Source: Clostridiales bacterium
GTDB lineage: Bacteria; Bacillota; Clostridia; Lachnospirales; WQUN01
Assembly (NCBI GenBank): GCA_031263155.1
Contig: JAISGK010000096.1
Coordinates: 1 to 64,000, forward strand
Length of the DNA stretch: 64,000 bases
Direction of reading: 5' to 3'
The notes beneath the pieces are model-generated. The model made no database searches. It had not been told where the DNA came from and saw only the letters and a list, made by a program, of their open reading frames with translations. Positions 11,002-18,530 of this stretch are shown one piece after another. Both the position numbers and the translations under genes were made by a program. Within the stretch, counting starts at the first letter, position 1. The number at the start of each line of letters is the position of its first letter.

Positions 11002-11109
11002 TTGACCAATCAACTCAACGATCACGGCACGCCGATAGTGTCGCGCCTACATACAAATTCGGAAATTGTAGAGTTTGTTGTCTTAGCAGCCCGTGCGCGT
11101 ACCATATGA
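11002..11109 (+). CDS. Short ORF (35 codons) coupled to the membrane transporter gene
   Basis: A TTG at 11002 lies 9 bases after AAGAGGAG and opens a 35-codon frame (LTNQLNDHGTPIVSRL..., ending VVLAARARTI). It stops at 11107-11109, overlapping the ATG of the next gene in an ATGA arrangement. The transporter gene has no good ribosome binding site of its own, so translation of this ORF could deliver ribosomes to it. I do not recognise the peptide. It could also be a gene remnant. Confidence 0.4.
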   Translation: MTNQLNDHGTPIVSRLHTNSEIVEFVVLAARARTI

Positions 11110-12686
11110 AAAATTTTGACGTTTTGAAAAGTATGCTATCGGGCGCGATAGTATGTGTTATCGTTTTGGTTTTAACGGTATTTAGCACATTCAAAACAGG
11201 CATGACCGCAGTTATGGATACTGTGCTTCTGTCAATTATGTTTTTAGCGGTTTTTCGTGGCATGACAACAAAGAATGTCGCGTTGTCTGATACGTTCGCC
11301 AGGGCGTCGATATCATGCGTTTCGACAACGGCCATATACTTTGCGACAGTATTCATATTCCATATTGTTATAGATTTGAACACCATTATCCGGTTTGGGG
11401 CGCTTATTATTTCTTCGGCGATTTTGGGTATTCTTTTCTACTCGACTATTTCAGAATATTTCTCGGACGATAAATATAAGTTTCCACAGCTTACACCGCG
11501 AGTAGTTATGATTTCAGCCGCAGGCAATGATCTGATGAGAAATCTGGCGATCATCGCCTCGACATTGGGAGCGGCGTTTTACTCAATACCCGTCAATATA
11601 GTAAACCTAATCCCCGGTCAGATACAATGGGTAAAGAACGCTATGTTTTCGTTAGATAACAGTCTACTTATTGTATCCACCGGATATTTTATTGGTTATG
11701 ATACATACTTGAAAATGGGGGTTGGGTTTATATACTCGCTCCTCATTTACGCGCTATTCCCAAGCAGTGATTACGCAAGCCATATTATGAATCCATTTGT
11801 CTACTCTGTTATTCTGGGTTTTTCCATTATGCAGGGCGTTATAACAATCTATAGATCAGTAAAGATGTGGAGACGCCCTTCTTTAGGTTTCGCTGTCAAT
11901 AAATTAAAGATAAAACGCTCAAGTTTGATTGTTATTATTATTACATTTGTTCTTTACGGTTTATTTTTTTTGCAACCTATTAATCCTCAGTATAGTTTGC
12001 CAGTATGGATATTCTTGTTATTGATTCCAATAACCATTGTGTCTAGCATGTCAACCCTCGTTAGTGTCGCCGAAACCGGCTTCTGGTTTTCGCCCTTGGA
12101 GGATATACTGCCCATTGTTATTATATTGCTAACGCAAACCACAAATATCACCGCAATTATTTTAGTAGTAACCGGTTTGACGGCTTTCGAGATGGCGGGG
12201 ATATATTATGGCATCAATTATCAAGTTAGCCGCCGATTTGAGTTGGAAAAGAGTGCACTTACCTTTGGAAGTATAATAAGCAACATATTAGGCGGATTTA
12301 TTTGCGTTGGGTTGGTTGTTTTGCTGGCGCAAGGAATTGGGATTGGAGGCCAGGCTCTGCCAGTACCTGGCGCTCAGGTGTTGGGAATGACCCTTGAAGG
12401 TTTGACCGCTGCGTTTGCGAATTTTAGATTGCCTGATTATCTGAATATTTATGTGTTTTTGGCGGCGTGCGCTTTATGTGTAGCTTTGCGGAAAACAAGC
12501 CTGTCTCCTATGGTATTGCTGGGTGGGATACTACTGCCTTTTGGTTCGTTTTTAACGATTGGTATTGGCGCGGCTATCTCATTTGCTTTAAGAAAAAGGG
12601 ATAAATATGATGAGCTGTTTTCTGGCCTGGCAATTGGTGATGGGTTAGTTTCCGCCATAGCCGCTTTGGTAAGCGCGTTGTCATAA
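11106..12686 (+). CDS. Polytopic membrane protein, OPT-transporter-like
   Basis: Very hydrophobic protein of 526 residues with roughly 12-14 membrane segments. The N-terminal segment (TVFSTFKTGMTAVMDTVLLSI...LSDTFARASISCVSTTA) and the C-terminal GLAIGDGLVSAIAALV resemble OPT oligopeptide/siderophore transporters (GLKTG near the N-terminus, GLIAGEGL near the C-terminus). The resemblance is partial and the ligand is unknown. The ATG overlaps the stop of a 35-codon ORF. A hairpin without a T-run follows the stop codon. Confidence 0.55.
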   Translation: MKNFDVLKSMLSGAIVCVIVLVLTVFSTFKTGMTAVMDTVLLSIMFLAVFRGMTTKNVALSDTFARASISCVSTTAIYFATVFIFHIVIDLNTIIRFGALIISSAILGILFYSTISEYFSDDKYKFPQLTPRVVMISAAGNDLMRNLAIIASTLGAAFYSIPVNIVNLIPGQIQWVKNAMFSLDNSLLIVSTGYFIGYDTYLKMGVGFIYSLLIYALFPSSDYASHIMNPFVYSVILGFSIMQGVITIYRSVKMWRRPSLGFAVNKLKIKRSSLIVIIITFVLYGLFFLQPINPQYSLPVWIFLLLIPITIVSSMSTLVSVAETGFWFSPLEDILPIVIILLTQTTNITAIILVVTGLTAFEMAGIYYGINYQVSRRFELEKSALTFGSIISNILGGFICVGLVVLLAQGIGIGGQALPVPGAQVLGMTLEGLTAAFANFRLPDYLNIYVFLAACALCVALRKTSLSPMVLLGGILLPFGSFLTIGIGAAISFALRKRDKYDELFSGLAIGDGLVSAIAALVSALS

Positions 12687-12703: not shown

Positions 12704-12735
12704 CGCCGATTTGGCTTTAGTCAGCCTCATCGGCG
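12704..12735 (+). terminator. Possible terminator after the transporter gene
   Basis: CGCCGAT (12704-12710) pairs with ATCGGCG (12729-12735), with a further TGGCT/AGCC pairing inside. It follows the transporter stop codon by about 17 bases. There is no U-run, so intrinsic termination would be weak. Confidence 0.35.
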
Positions 12736-12812
12736 CATTGCGTTAACAGTCTTGGCGATTTCTTTATTGGTTGGCTGCGGCGCGGCGGAAGAGTTCAGAA
12801 AGACGTCGGAAT
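12734..12812 (+). pseudogene. Fragment of a second pstS (signal peptide region)
   Basis: These 79 bases align without gaps to the 5' end of pstS at 13616-13694, with 13 mismatches by eye (about 83% identity). They encode the same lipoprotein signal (ALTGLAISLLAGC region). Nothing further of pstS follows: after the fragment comes the toxin-antitoxin pair. It looks like the stub of a duplicated pstS, and it supports a history of tandem duplication at this locus. Confidence 0.75.
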
Positions 12813-12845: not shown

Positions 12846-13107
12846 TCAATCGTCATAATGCCCCTTACATTGCAAAATCTCAATGGAACCGTCAGCTTTA
12901 AGCTGATAAACAAGCCTGTTGACATCATCAATGCGTCTGCTCCAACCGTCGCGGTGGCGGAGTGGTTCTGGCTTGCCGATTCCGTCGTTGCCATTCCGGG
13001 CAATATCTTTGAGAAGCATATTCACACGCTTGAGCGTTTTTTTTGTCGGTTTCTTGCCAATACAGATATTCTTCCCATGCTCTTTCGGCGAAGGTCAGCT
13101 TAACCAT
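12846..13107 (-). pseudogene. yoeB: YoeB/Txe-type mRNA interferase toxin, frameshifted
   Basis: Read from the ATG at 13107 the sequence gives MVKLTFAERAWEEYLYWQET and DKK, strongly matching YoeB. The frame is then broken in a run of eight A (minus strand, 13037-13044). Removing one A restores the rest: KTLKRVNMLLKDIARNG, then GKPEPLRHRDGWSRRIDDVN, RLVYQLKADG and a terminal GHYDD with the catalytic-type His-Tyr. As sequenced the toxin is inactive. Homopolymer errors are common, so an intact gene cannot be excluded. The start overlaps the antitoxin stop by 8 bases, as in real pairs. YoeB toxins cleave mRNA on translating ribosomes. Confidence 0.85.
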
Positions 13108-13372
13108 TCTCCATCGCCTCTAATTCCTCAAGGGTTTTAACGACCACTTGCCCGCGCTCAATCTGTTTGGCGGCTTCGTCGATAGCGGCTATGTTTTTGT
13201 CGCTGTAAAACGGGTCAACCGAAACCTCAAAGGGGATACGCTGCTCACGGCTCATTTTCTTCGCGAAAATTGTAAAAGCAGTCGTCATGTTCATCCCCAA
13301 ATTTTGGCAAGTACGCTCCATAGACCTTTTTAAGTCCTCATCCATTCTGATGTTTACTAAAACCTGTGCCAT
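13100..13372 (-). CDS. RelB/DinJ-family antitoxin
   Basis: Protein of 90 residues: N-terminal ribbon-helix-helix DNA-binding domain (AQVLVNIRMDEDLKRSMERTC...LGMNMTTAFTIFAKKM) and an acidic C-terminal tail that would wrap the toxin. The start chosen is the ATG at 13372, with AAGGAAG 8 bases upstream. It precedes and overlaps a YoeB-type toxin gene that carries a frameshift. Pairs of this kind repress their own promoter. The pair sits between a pstS fragment and pstS, which suggests it was inserted there. Confidence 0.85.
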   Translation of the reverse strand: MAQVLVNIRMDEDLKRSMERTCQNLGMNMTTAFTIFAKKMSREQRIPFEVSVDPFYSDKNIAAIDEAAKQIERGQVVVKTLEELEAMENG

Positions 13373-13499
13373 TGTTGTCACTTCCTTTCAATCGTATTTA
13401 TACGCCAAAATAAAGACAATGTCAATATGCCGTCTTTAAAAATCCGGAAACACACAAACAAAACAACGAATTATTTCCGGCCTATTTTTTATCTATATC

Positions 13500-13562
13500 T
13501 TACAAACATCTTACACTAATACTGTGCATATTTATTGACCGGCCCAAATTCTCTGATATACT
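13500..13562 (+). promoter_or_regulatory. pstS promoter with Pho-box-like direct repeats
   Basis: TTACAA (13500-13505) and TTACAC (13511-13516) are direct repeats spaced at 11 bases, the period of PhoP/PhoB half-sites. Downstream are TTGACC (13535-13540) and TATACT (13557-13562), separated by 16 bases, a good sigma-A-type promoter. This arrangement fits induction of the pst operon by phosphate starvation. No phoR/phoP genes are in the window. Confidence 0.55.
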
Positions 13563-13601: not shown

Positions 13602-14462
13602 GTGCAAAAATTTATGCGCATTGCGTTAACAGGCTTAGCGATTTCTTTATTGGCTGGCTGCGCTACTGCGGAGGCGTTCAAAAAAACGACTGAAATATCT
13701 GTCGTTTCGCGCGAAGATGGATCCGGTACACGCGGCGCGTTTATAGAGTTGTTTGAGATTCAGGAAAAGGTAGACGGCAACACGATCGACAAAACTACAG
13801 AAGAGGCGATTATCGCCCGCGCCACAGACATTATGATGACCAACATGGCGGGGGATAAATACGCCATAGGGTACATATCATTAGGCTCGCTTAACGACAC
13901 GGTAAAAGCGCTGGAGATAGAAGGCGCGCAGGCCACTACAGATAATGTCAAAAACGGATCATACACCATTTCCCGCCCGTTCTTTATAGCGCAAAAGGGC
14001 GAGCTTAGCCCACAGGCCGCAGAATTTTTATCTTACATTATGTCTAAAGAGGGTCAAGAAGTGATCGGCGCCTCGTACATCGCAATAGACGCTAACGCGC
14101 CGTCATTCGCAAGCGCCAACGCAAGCGGCAATGTAGTAGTCGCCGGCTCTTCATCCGTTTCGCCCGCCATGGAGAAGTTAAAAGAGGCTTACACAAAGGT
14201 TAACCCCAACGTCAGCGTAGAGATTCAAACCAGCGACAGCACAACCGGTATGAACGCCGCAATAGAGGGCACATGCGACATTGGCATGGCAAGCCGCGAG
14301 CTTAAAGACTCAGAGCTCGAAGCGCTTACCCCCACGCAAATAGCCATAGATGGCATCGCCGTTATCGTCAACAAGGGCAACCCCGCCAGCGACTTGACAA
14401 AAGAGCAAGTAAAAGGTATATTTACTGGTGAAATATCAACTTGGGACGCGATTGTTGAGTAA
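13602..14462 (+). CDS. pstS: Phosphate-binding lipoprotein PstS, circularly permuted
   Basis: Phosphate-binding protein of the PstSCAB importer, 286 residues, anchored by a lipoprotein signal (AISLLAGC, Cys20). The order of its parts is unusual. Residues 31-165 match the C-terminal half of ordinary PstS (VVSREDGSGTRGAF, then YISLGSLNDTVKAL, then SRPFFIAQKG and SKEGQEVI). Residues 175-286 match the N-terminal half (VVAGSSSVSPAMEKL, CDIGMASRELKDSEL, DGIAVIVNKGNPASDLTKEQ, FTGEISTWDAI). All phosphate-contact loops are kept, so binding should be possible. The GTG at 13602 follows AGGGAG by 9 bases. pstC follows at once, and a pstS 5' fragment lies upstream. Confidence 0.85.
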   Translation: MQKFMRIALTGLAISLLAGCATAEAFKKTTEISVVSREDGSGTRGAFIELFEIQEKVDGNTIDKTTEEAIIARATDIMMTNMAGDKYAIGYISLGSLNDTVKALEIEGAQATTDNVKNGSYTISRPFFIAQKGELSPQAAEFLSYIMSKEGQEVIGASYIAIDANAPSFASANASGNVVVAGSSSVSPAMEKLKEAYTKVNPNVSVEIQTSDSTTGMNAAIEGTCDIGMASRELKDSELEALTPTQIAIDGIAVIVNKGNPASDLTKEQVKGIFTGEISTWDAIVE

Positions 14463-14509
14463 AGGCTGCTTGCAGGTTTTTTTCCCGCAACATGCCGAAT
14501 GGTGATATC

Positions 14510-15379
14510 ATGAACAAAAATAAATCCTTTAGCCTGGAAATACTGATGCGCGGTGTGTTTTTATCATGCGCCGCCGTCAGTATTTTGGCAGTGCTTCTAA
14601 TATGCCTGTTCTTGTTTGCCAACGGTATACCCGGCATTGGCAAGATAGGGCTACTTGATTTTTTAACGGGTACATCGTGGAAGCCAAATGACATACCGGC
14701 TTCTTTCGGTATATTACCCATGATAGTGGGCAGTTGCCTGGTCACTTTGGGTGCGATTTCCATCGGTGTTCCCATTGGCGTGGCCAGCGCTGTATTTATG
14801 GCGTTCTGCTGCCCAAAAAACCTGTATAAAATCCTAAAACCCGCGATAAACCTGCTTGCGGGTATCCCCTCTGTTATTTATGGTTTCTTTGGCATGGCCG
14901 CTATCGTTCCTGTATTTGGCAACAGTATCATATCCGCCTGTATCTTGCTTGGATTGATGATTTTACCTACCGTTATCGGACTTTCCGAAAGCGCGTTACG
15001 CGCCGTGCCCGAGCAATTTTACGAAGGCGCGCTCGCGCTGGGTTCAGGGCATTATCGCGCTGTGTATAGGGTCGCTCTGCCCGCCGCTAAATCCGGTGTT
15101 ATGGCCGCCGTCGTTCTTGGAGTAGGGCGCGCCATTGGCGAAACCATGGCGGTTATTATGGTAGCGGGCAATCAAGCGCGTATGCCAAAAGACATGTTTC
15201 CAATTCCGAAAGGCTTGTTTAGAGGTATCCGCACACTTACCGCCAACATAGTCATCGAGATGGGGTACGCCGCCGAATTGCACCGGGAAGCGCTCATAGC
15301 CACAGGCGTTGTGCTGCTCATATTTATTTTGATTATCAACCTCTGTTTTGGCGATACGCTTAGGAGAAAAAAACAGTGA
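14510..15379 (+). CDS. pstC: Phosphate ABC transporter permease PstC
   Basis: Inner-membrane permease, about 289 residues, six helices. Family features are GIGKIGLLDFLTGTSW after the first helix, PAINLLAGIPSVIYGFFGM, the EAA-type loop (RAVPEQFYEGALALGSGHYRAVYRV) and GVGRAIGETMAVIMVAGN. The ATG at 14510 gives a normal N-terminus; an in-frame ATG at 14492 is also possible, and neither has a strong ribosome binding site. It pairs with PstA and overlaps it by four bases (GTGA). Confidence 0.9.
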   Translation: MNKNKSFSLEILMRGVFLSCAAVSILAVLLICLFLFANGIPGIGKIGLLDFLTGTSWKPNDIPASFGILPMIVGSCLVTLGAISIGVPIGVASAVFMAFCCPKNLYKILKPAINLLAGIPSVIYGFFGMAAIVPVFGNSIISACILLGLMILPTVIGLSESALRAVPEQFYEGALALGSGHYRAVYRVALPAAKSGVMAAVVLGVGRAIGETMAVIMVAGNQARMPKDMFPIPKGLFRGIRTLTANIVIEMGYAAELHREALIATGVVLLIFILIINLCFGDTLRRKKQ

Positions 15380-16212
15380 ATATCAAAAAAATGAAGCCGA
15401 CCGAACTTATAATGCATGTACTGACATGGGGCGCGGCCATACTCACCATCTGCGCGCTCATTTATCTTATTGGATTTATTTTGTTAAAGGGTCTACCATA
15501 TCTCAAGCCGTCGTTGTTTTCCCTTACATATAACAGTGACAATGTATCGTTAATGCCAGCCCTTATCTCCACCGTATTTATGACGTTTTTGTCGTTGCTT
15601 ATAGCCGCGCCGTTGGGCATAGGCGCGGCTATATACCTTGCCGAGTATGTGCGCCGCGAAGGCAGGTTTGTTACCTTTGTGCGCATGATGTCGGAAACGC
15701 TGGCTGGCATACCATCTATTGTATACGGCTTGTTTGGCATGCTGTTTTTTGTTAACGCCCTGCGCTGGGGCTACTCGTTGATCGCGGGAGCGTTTACGCT
15801 CTCTATAATGATTTTGCCGCTGCTCATGCGCAGCACAGAAGAGGCGTTAAAGTCTGTGCCCGATGTTTGGCGAGAGGGTTCGTTTGGCCTTGGCGCGGGT
15901 AAATTGCGCACAGTGTTTAAGGTTGTGCTGCCAGCGGCCTCGCCGGGCATTCTCGCGGGCATAATTCTTGCCGTGGGGCGTGTGGTCGGCGAAACCGCCG
16001 CGTTGATATTTACCTCGGGCACGGTTGCGCAAGTGCCCTCTAGCGCGCTAAAGTCGGCGCGTACACTGTCTGTGCATATGTATGTGCTTTCGGGCGAAGG
16101 CTTGCACATGGGCGAGGGCTACGCTACCGCCGTGGTACTGCTGGTCGTCGTTGTCGCGATTAACGCGTTGTCGGCGTCGCTGGCCAAAAAGATTGGGGCT
16201 GGGGACAAATGA
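15376..16212 (+). CDS. pstA: Phosphate ABC transporter permease PstA
   Basis: Inner-membrane permease of 278 residues partnering PstC. It shows the [16 protein letters not shown] motif, the coupling loop ([28 protein letters not shown]) and [16 protein letters not shown]. The GTG start overlaps the pstC stop (GTGA), and its own stop overlaps the pstB ATG (ATGA), so pstC-pstA-pstB are translationally coupled. Confidence 0.92.
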
Positions 16213-16958
16213 GCTGCTTTGACATAAAAAACCTGAATTTATACTACGGTGATTTTCAAGCTCTTAAGGGCATAAATATGAATATCTTAAAAAATAACAT
16301 AACAGCTTTTATTGGCCCCTCGGGTTGTGGCAAAAGCACCCTGATAAAATCGCTTAACCGTATGAACGATTTAATAGAAAACTGCCGCATAACCGGAAAG
16401 GTTGAACTGTTTGGCGAGAGCATCTATGGCGATATGGACGTTAATCTGTTACGCAAGCGCGTTGGCATGGTATTTCAAAAGCCGAACCCTTTCCCCATGA
16501 GCGTGTATGACAATATCGCGTTTGGTCCCCGTACCCATGGTATAAAATCCAAGCCACAGCTTAACGAAATAGTGGAGCGTTCGCTTCAAGACGCCGCCAT
16601 TTGGGGTGAGCTAAAAGACAGGCTGGGCAAGTCCGCGCTGGGTCTTTCAGGGGGGCAGCAGCAAAGATTGTGTGTGGCGCGGGCGCTGGCTGTCGAGCCG
16701 GAGGTCTTGTTGCTGGACGAACCCACAAGCGCCCTTGACCCCATATCTACCGGCAAGATAGAGGAACTTTTGCTAACGCTTAAAAATCGCTACTCCATTA
16801 TTATCGTAACGCACAACATGCAACAGGCGACGCGCATCAGTGACTATACCGCGTTCTTTTTGCTTGGAGAGGTCATAGAATTTGGCCCGACAGAGAACCT
16901 GTTTTCCATGCCTGTAGATAAACGTACAGAGAATTATATAACAGGCAGATTCGGTTAA
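16209..16958 (+). CDS. pstB: Phosphate ABC transporter ATP-binding protein PstB
   Basis: ATPase that drives PstCA, 249 residues, full length. Walker A is GPSGCGKST (residues 36-44), the signature is [15 protein letters not shown], Walker B is [12 protein letters not shown] and the switch His is in [10 protein letters not shown]. The C-terminus YITGRFG is the normal PstB end. The gene overlaps pstA by four bases. The usual downstream phoU is absent; instead a partial mobile repeat begins three bases after the stop codon. Confidence 0.95.
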
Positions 16959-17105: not shown

Positions 17106-18530
17106 ATGGGGGTTTTTCATTTGCACAAAGAGGGCAGTAGCAGACGCAAATGGTCACGCTTTGAGAAACGCCGCGTATATATAATAATCTTGGCCGCCTC
17201 AATAGTGTTAGTAACCGCGCTTAGTATGCGCGGCGCGTTTGCGTGGTTAACGGACGTTGGGCGCGTGCCGTCAGTAAAGGTTTCTACCAATTACGGCCAA
17301 ACGCTGGTATATAACGCTGCCCCTATAAACGGCGCCGCTGGGCAACTGGATGTTGTAGCTACCAATGATAGCGCTCAAACCCTGTTGCCCGGCGAGACGG
17401 GTTACGCGCGGCTCAATTTTAAAAACCTTGGCGACGGGCCTTTAGTGTTTCGCGTATCGCTAGAGGCGGACACGGATGATACGATAGATCGTTACAATGG
17501 TTTTGAGGTGTGGGATATGCAAGGGCGCATACTCGCCAACCACACGCGAATGTATGATTTGGGCTTTGCGCCGCACAGCCCCCTCGAAGGCGAGCCAGAA
17601 TACTATTATGGATTTGTGGGCCCAAAAGATGAAATATATCTAGACGCGCGTTACACGCTAAGTGTGTCGCCCATACAGTCCATTGAAAGTTTGGAGCATG
17701 GCGAATTTAATGTTCACATACGCGTGGACGCCGTGCAGGGTACAGAGATAGGCGTGAGGGACTACTTTGGTTTTACAGCCGACATTCTCGGAAACCTGAC
17801 CCCATTTACTCCAACCCCCACTGTGGCGCTCACTATTCCCAATACGCCAACGCGAAAGGCATCGCCCACAAGCAAGCCGCGACCGACGTTTACTCCTTCG
17901 CCAACGCCGATGAATCCATCTACACGTATTCCAGACGCGACTAAAACGCCACTGCCTACGAGAGGGGGAGGGACAGCGCCAATTAATACACCAACGAATA
18001 CGCCAACCAACACGCCCGTCAACACTCCAACGAATACGCCAACCAACACCCCAACCAATACACCAACGAATACGCCAACCAACACTCCGACCAACACCCC
18101 AACGCCTGTGCCCGCACTTAATTGCAACACTGACGCGCCGCCCACACCAGTTTTGTTTGGACCGGCATATACCTACCCAGGACGAATTCATCTAAGTTGG
18201 GAGGAAGTCCCCTGCGCTGACACCTACTATGTATATCTGGTTGTTGTAAACAAAAATGAGTCTCCGCCAGACGAGAGCAGATATGACCAAGTGGTGGCCG
18301 TCTCTTCAGAGTTATTTATGAATGAGGATGATGGGCCAGGATGGATTAATGTTAATTTATATAATTTTAGGAACGGACGTAACAACGTTAAGGCCGACTG
18401 CGACGACACTAATCTTATGTGGTACTTCAAGATTAAGGCTATCAACTATGCCGGCTGCCCACAATGCGGAGCCAACCCCAAAAGCAACTGGTACAGGTGG
18501 AATAATAACGTTGGCGAGGTACAGCCATAA
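17106..18530 (+). CDS. Secreted surface protein with NTPT-repeat stalk
   Basis: Protein of 474 residues exported by an uncleaved or late-cleaved N-terminal helix (VYIIILAASIVLVTALSMRGAFAWLTD); the AFAWLTD end resembles SipW-type signals of TasA/camelysin-like proteins. Residues about 48-235 form a beta-rich domain, about 240-345 a Thr/Pro/Asn-rich stalk with ten tandem N-T-P-T units, and about 350-474 a Cys-containing domain resembling a fibronectin-type fold (PGRIHLSWEEVPCADTYYVY). I do not recognise a specific family. It is monocistronic; the start ATG at 17106 has only a weak ribosome binding site. Cell-surface or matrix location is inferred. Confidence 0.65.
   Translation: MGVFHLHKEGSSRRKWSRFEKRRVYIIILAASIVLVTALSMRGAFAWLTDVGRVPSVKVSTNYGQTLVYNAAPINGAAGQLDVVATNDSAQTLLPGETGYARLNFKNLGDGPLVFRVSLEADTDDTIDRYNGFEVWDMQGRILANHTRMYDLGFAPHSPLEGEPEYYYGFVGPKDEIYLDARYTLSVSPIQSIESLEHGEFNVHIRVDAVQGTEIGVRDYFGFTADILGNLTPFTPTPTVALTIPNTPTRKASPTSKPRPTFTPSPTPMNPSTRIPDATKTPLPTRGGGTAPINTPTNTPTNTPVNTPTNTPTNTPTNTPTNTPTNTPTNTPTPVPALNCNTDAPPTPVLFGPAYTYPGRIHLSWEEVPCADTYYVYLVVVNKNESPPDESRYDQVVAVSSELFMNEDDGPGWINVNLYNFRNGRNNVKADCDDTNLMWYFKIKAINYAGCPQCGANPKSNWYRWNNNVGEVQP
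17985..18104 (+). repeat. Ten 12-bp tandem units encoding N-T-P-T
   Basis: Ten near-identical 12-base units (for example AATACGCCAACC, AACACCCCAACC) run without interruption inside the surface protein gene, starting at codon 294. One unit carries V in place of the second T. Tandem DNA of this kind can expand and contract by slippage in steps of four residues, changing stalk length without breaking the frame. Confidence 0.9.

Follow-up and report, generated by a model that had tools for sequence, protein, structure and literature searches.

We conclude with high confidence that the gene at 13602-14462 codes for the lipoprotein that binds phosphate with high affinity for a Pst ABC importer, and that this protein belongs to a PstS branch of single origin whose chains are naturally circularly permuted, the S. 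pneumoniae PstS2 type. The window, i.e. the whole stretch of DNA analysed, comprises 64,000 nucleotides of a Clostridiales genome; the features relevant to the gene are the following.

13499-13515 (+): Pho-box-like direct repeat CTTACA-N5-CTTACA, CTTACAAACATCTTACA, about 100 bp 5' of the start codon
13586-13591 (+): ribosome-binding site AGGGAG, from the sequence
13602-14462 (+): permuted pstS, phosphate-binding lipoprotein, 286 aa, from sequence, profile and structure comparisons
13602-13661 (+): lipoprotein signal peptide, lipobox LAGC ending at Cys20, from the sequence
13686-14066 (+): normally C-terminal PstS half, residues 29-155, with the SREDGSGTRGAF ligand loop, from collinear PstS profile positions 114-233
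14070-14123 (+): linker that joins the former C- and N-terminus, residues 157-174, from the rotation optimum, coil in the model and linker lengths
14124-14450 (+): normally N-terminal PstS half, residues 175-283, AGSSSVSP to FTGEISTW, from collinear PstS profile positions 1-109
14492-15379 (+): pstC permease, TIGR02138, 263 bits, above the curated cut-off
15376-16212 (+): pstA permease, TIGR00974, 264 bits, above the curated cut-off
16209-16958 (+): pstB ATPase, TIGR00972, 402 bits, above the curated cut-off

Circular permutation of the PstS chain

The original prediction described a protein that, behind a lipoprotein signal, begins with what is normally the C-terminal half of PstS and ends with the normally N-terminal half, and this swapped order is confirmed as a real circular permutation. 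The reading frame has exactly the predicted limits, starts with GTG, and carries the expected lipobox. Compared to a reference profile built from about 35 collinear PstS, the native chain does not align collinearly but as two exchanged blocks, residues 29-155 scoring 121.7 bits against profile positions 114-233, and residues 175-283 scoring 132.3 bits against positions 1-109. The chain was then cut at every 4th residue and each rotation scored against the collinear profile: cuts at 157-173 form a plateau of 260.4 bits in one piece, the maximum of all rotations tried, with scores dropping on either side and the best native piece reaching about 132 bits. The old termini are therefore joined at residues 156-174, a range that contains most of the predicted join at residues 165-175. 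The new termini are located where canonical PstS has a short loop that connects the '[IF]xG.I..W' helix (FTGEISTW) to the strand leading toward SREDGSGT.

Pfam PBP_like_2 (PF12849) covers the native chain in two stretches (130 bits), with the N-terminal part of the profile placed on residues 170-282, and the rotated chain in a single stretch (141.6 bits, profile 8-267 of 267). Rotation also raises the scores of TIGR02136, the NCBI PstS-family model, from 179.5 to 192.0, and of TIGR00975 from 54.2 to 58.1. Both forms stay below the respective cut-offs of 206.6 (the rotated chain by about 15 bits) and 205, which are annotation thresholds of collinear models and no biological feature.

In agreement with the profiles, structure prediction and comparison, one of the checks proposed with the prediction, returned a model that matches a known permuted structure end to end and collinear PstS over one half only. 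The AlphaFold2 model, computed with 33 permuted sequences, has a mean pLDDT of 91.5 and a pTM of 0.82, and is also confident at the joining linker, a coil; confidence is low at residues 1-11 and 15-21, as expected of a signal peptide. Using Foldseek, whose alignment keeps chain order, it superposes on 4h1x, S. pneumoniae PstS2, with TM 0.83/0.91 over 256 columns (E 5.6e-34, 45% identity), whereas the collinear PstS 1twy and 4gd5 cover 91-130 columns only, i.e. one half. By phmmer, 4h1x is likewise the best PDB sequence match (residues 31-284 to 10-264, E 7e-62, end to end), and collinear PstS from C. perfringens (4gd5, 4q8r) and V. cholerae (1twy) match as two swapped blocks only. The 4h1x record, which refers to SP_2084, was made public in October 2012, and the permuted order has therefore been present in the PDB since then.

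An assembly error joining two genes or contigs, or a frameshift, would mimic such an order, and the genome assembly is indeed fragmented (110 contigs), with a rearranged region just upstream of the permuted pstS. However, more than 100 loci (Coprococcus comes, Blautia, Streptococcus mitis and Intestinimonas), from independent assemblies and isolates, show this order with the same length of linker, and the crystal structure 4h1x has it, too. We therefore give an artefact practically no chance; the joining of two genes by misassembly, named in the prediction as what would overturn it, is ruled out by these independent loci and 4h1x. The other such condition, a collinear best alignment to PstS, does not hold either, since ordinary PstS is matched best in swapped blocks.

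Phosphate cleft, operon and function

The nearest collinear sequence relatives with structures are C. perfringens PBP-1 (4gd5, 4q8r) and V. cholerae 1twy, of the PBP_like_2/TIGR02136 type, which have the same two lobes and the same ligand motifs GS.S..P, MASR and SREDGSGTR, but the ordinary order of halves, with the termini in lobe 1 and a continuous lobe 2. Placed on the canonical architecture, as given for example by the domain limits of CpPstS (PMC12421899), the cut in the permuted protein would lie within lobe 2, and the old termini would be joined in lobe 1. Thus lobe 1 would be continuous and lobe 2 split, opposite to ordinary PstS; with its new termini in lobe 2, the protein would carry its lipid anchor there instead of on lobe 1. 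Judged by the canonical protein, both lobe-to-lobe crossovers, i.e. the SRPFFIA strand (about 124-132) and the DGIAVIVN strand (about 242-256), are intact, so that the hinge is expected to be unchanged. Because both crossover segments and all ligand loops are retained, the two lobes would close on phosphate as in ordinary PstS.

Both halves of the cleft were predicted to be complete, and the ligand motifs of each are present: R37, S41-G42-T43, G182-S183-S185 and S231-R232 are invariant in both alignments of permuted proteins (18 and 33 sequences), and align with those of 4gd5, for which the PDB title states bound phosphate. By motif alignment, the E. coli ligand Asp56 corresponds to Arg232 of the MASR motif, as in the C. 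perfringens PBP-1 type. PBP-1 is not known to form the short low-barrier hydrogen bond that E. coli PstS has, and poorer discrimination against arsenate is thus possible.

The arginine at the position of E. coli D56 could also be taken to mean that the permuted protein binds another oxyanion, or that it serves mainly as a sensor rather than in phosphate import. A very divergent permuted PstS-like gene in another locus (L075, 1496-2425) fits a sensory role, being located away from pstCAB and flanked by a Na/Pi-cotransporter-like and a polyphosphate-kinase-like reading frame; the locus has another permuted pstS that heads pstCAB, and the divergent gene is possibly a phosphate-sensing accessory. 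For the protein studied here we consider a different ligand or a sensor function very unlikely, as the SR and SREDGSGTR motifs are shared with the phosphate-bound 4gd5, the gene, preceded by a Pho box, heads pstCAB, and Pst2 of S. pneumoniae is a phosphate importer (PMC4913102).

As predicted, the gene heads a pstSCAB operon, with pstC, pstA and pstB following. The arrangement holds for nearly all permuted genes: pstC/pstA come next in 95 of the 99 with enough downstream sequence. In the window's own genome, which is 92% complete, neither search detected a second PstS, and PhoU is encoded on another contig. The Pho-box-like repeat is matched once in the window against 0.02 matches expected, and a box of the same layout precedes permuted pstS in 41/105 cases (0.18 in base-shuffled copies) and collinear pstS in 16/36 (0.04 in base-shuffled copies). 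The pneumococcal Pho box, TTTACACAATCTTTACA, has the layout of the 13499-13515 repeat (PMC4913102), and the operon would probably be induced by phosphate starvation via a PhoP/PnpR-type regulator.

S. pneumoniae PstS2 is the closest known system, with the same permuted chain order over residues 31-284 and likewise the PstS of a Pst operon. It differs in sequence divergence only, and in that pst2 is reported to be constitutive and without a recognisable Pho box (PMC4913102), whereas the gene in the window has a Pho-box-like repeat. At 1 mM Pi, Pst2 is enough to take up phosphate, and encapsulated strains need pst1 or pst2 (PMC4913102). As Pst2 imports phosphate with a permuted PstS2, the permuted form works, and this pneumococcal genetics is the best support, by analogy, for its being functional. 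The window protein, which was predicted to be likely functional, is PstS by its fold, motifs and operon, and is supported by analogy as a working, ordinary one.

Distribution and origin of the permuted form

The prediction held that similar orders occur in some gut Clostridia, which is the case, but the range is wider. The permuted order was found in at least 100 homologues from Clostridia, Streptococcus, Treponema, Desulfovibrionaceae and others, and at least 448 relatives are present in GTDB genomes, of which the best 80 are all permuted. Permuted relatives include Blautia, Coprococcus comes, Intestinimonas, Thermoclostridium, Streptococcus mitis, Treponema, Desulfovibrionaceae and a Coriobacteriia bin, some bin names possibly being wrong. 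Among sampled relatives, 19/41 genomes carry a permuted gene. In evenly drawn samples, counted from match tables and including the window's own genome, full-length permuted matches were present in 34/116 genomes at order level; at class level 21/99 genomes had a permuted match (E <= 1e-40, one truncated), and at phylum level 7/150.

With both halves put back in register, a tree of 56 permuted and 30 collinear genes, from which three very long rows had been dropped, separates permuted from collinear genes by one branch (100/95). The same split is recovered from the C-terminal half alone (support 98) and from the N-terminal half, there with negligible support, and all 110 permuted genes share one cut site and a joining linker of 11-14 residues. 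Several independent origins, which would argue against one class, could be read from the best tree with all rows, which requires two changes rather than one, and from a divergent subgroup within the family of the window, placed between the collinear genes and the main group of permuted ones. However, 66% of the bootstrap trees with all rows still give a single change, and in the light of the clean split and the common cut site and linker we regard multiple origins as improbable. The best reading is that the permuted class arose from one event.

The origin would likely have been a tandem duplication of a collinear pstS, followed by fusion and loss of the outer halves. Tandem collinear pstS duplicates adjoin in one locus (L142), and two permuted pstS (319-1263 and 1365-2327) adjoin in another (L054), followed by pstCA. 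Among 143 loci, none showed an intermediate with fused tandem halves (N-C-N or C-N-C in a single frame); only C-N (110) and N-C (36) orders were found.

Taken further, we lean towards the view that a single ancient permutation founded a distinct, undescribed PstS class, which spread through Clostridia and into streptococci, treponemes and some Desulfovibrionaceae, in which the continuous lobe and the anchor lobe are reversed, and which is systematically under-annotated, since collinear family models score permuted PstS as two pieces. Two plasmid-borne permuted genes, for example, are annotated only as 'substrate-binding domain-containing protein'. This is a warning that a common phosphate transporter is scored too low by profiles derived from a single chain order.

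Functional transport proteins are rarely circularly permuted in nature. The nearest parallel described is TpMglB-2 (Tp0684), a type I sugar-binding protein from Treponema pallidum that is circularly permuted and assigned to 'Type Ic / Cluster Bc', which occurs in treponemes and Gram-positives (PMC4990184). It is likewise a naturally permuted binding protein of an ABC importer with retained function, in treponemes and Gram-positives, but it has a type I sugar-binding fold and belongs to another protein family, i.e. it is an analogue and no relative of the PstS permutation. Type Ic proteins are defined by the type I fold and glucose/galactose-binding homology, and both Pfam and Foldseek place the window protein with PstS types, not with MglB. 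The authors of the TpMglB-2 study suggest that permutation helps tethered proteins (PMC4990184). For PstS, the idea that permutation serves lipid tethering is weakened, because collinear relatives are equally often lipoproteins (lipobox by a simple rule in 30/36 collinear and 88/107 permuted genes) and permuted forms without lipobox occur, e.g. in Blautia and Desulfovibrionaceae. The permuted PstS of the Gram-positive Blautia (L101, L102, L057 and L085) have a Sec signal and no lipobox.

The prediction knew of no description of a permuted class, and in the freely accessible literature searched we found no paper that describes a permuted PstS or names it as a class, and no mention of 4h1x; the order itself, however, was already in S. 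pneumoniae PstS2. What is new here may thus be only the recognition and naming of permuted PstS as a single-origin class, while this gene is an ordinary representative of a kind that is widespread, functional and already crystallised. As permuted and collinear relatives exist by the hundreds, in some cases within a single genome, the effects of chain order and anchor position on closing, affinity and docking are testable.

Sequences flanking the operon

Downstream of the operon, the reading frame at 17106-18530 (+) encodes 474 aa with a TPTNTP tandem repeat region and has no Pfam match; upstream, that at 11106-12686 (+) encodes a predicted multi-pass membrane protein of 526 aa without Pfam or NCBIfam match. 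The signal-peptide segment of pstS (13616-13694, +) is one copy of a 79-nt direct repeat, the other (12733-12811, +; 84% identical) being located 883 bp 5'. This upstream copy reads RIALTVLAISLLVGCGAAEEFRKTSE, is not attached to a pstS body, and may be what is left of another or a displaced pstS; it has no visible role in the permutation. Between both copies (about 12850-13381, -) are a RelB-like antitoxin gene (PF04221) and a YoeB-like toxin gene (PF06769), the latter broken into two frames close to a run of eight T (T8, about 13035-13042).
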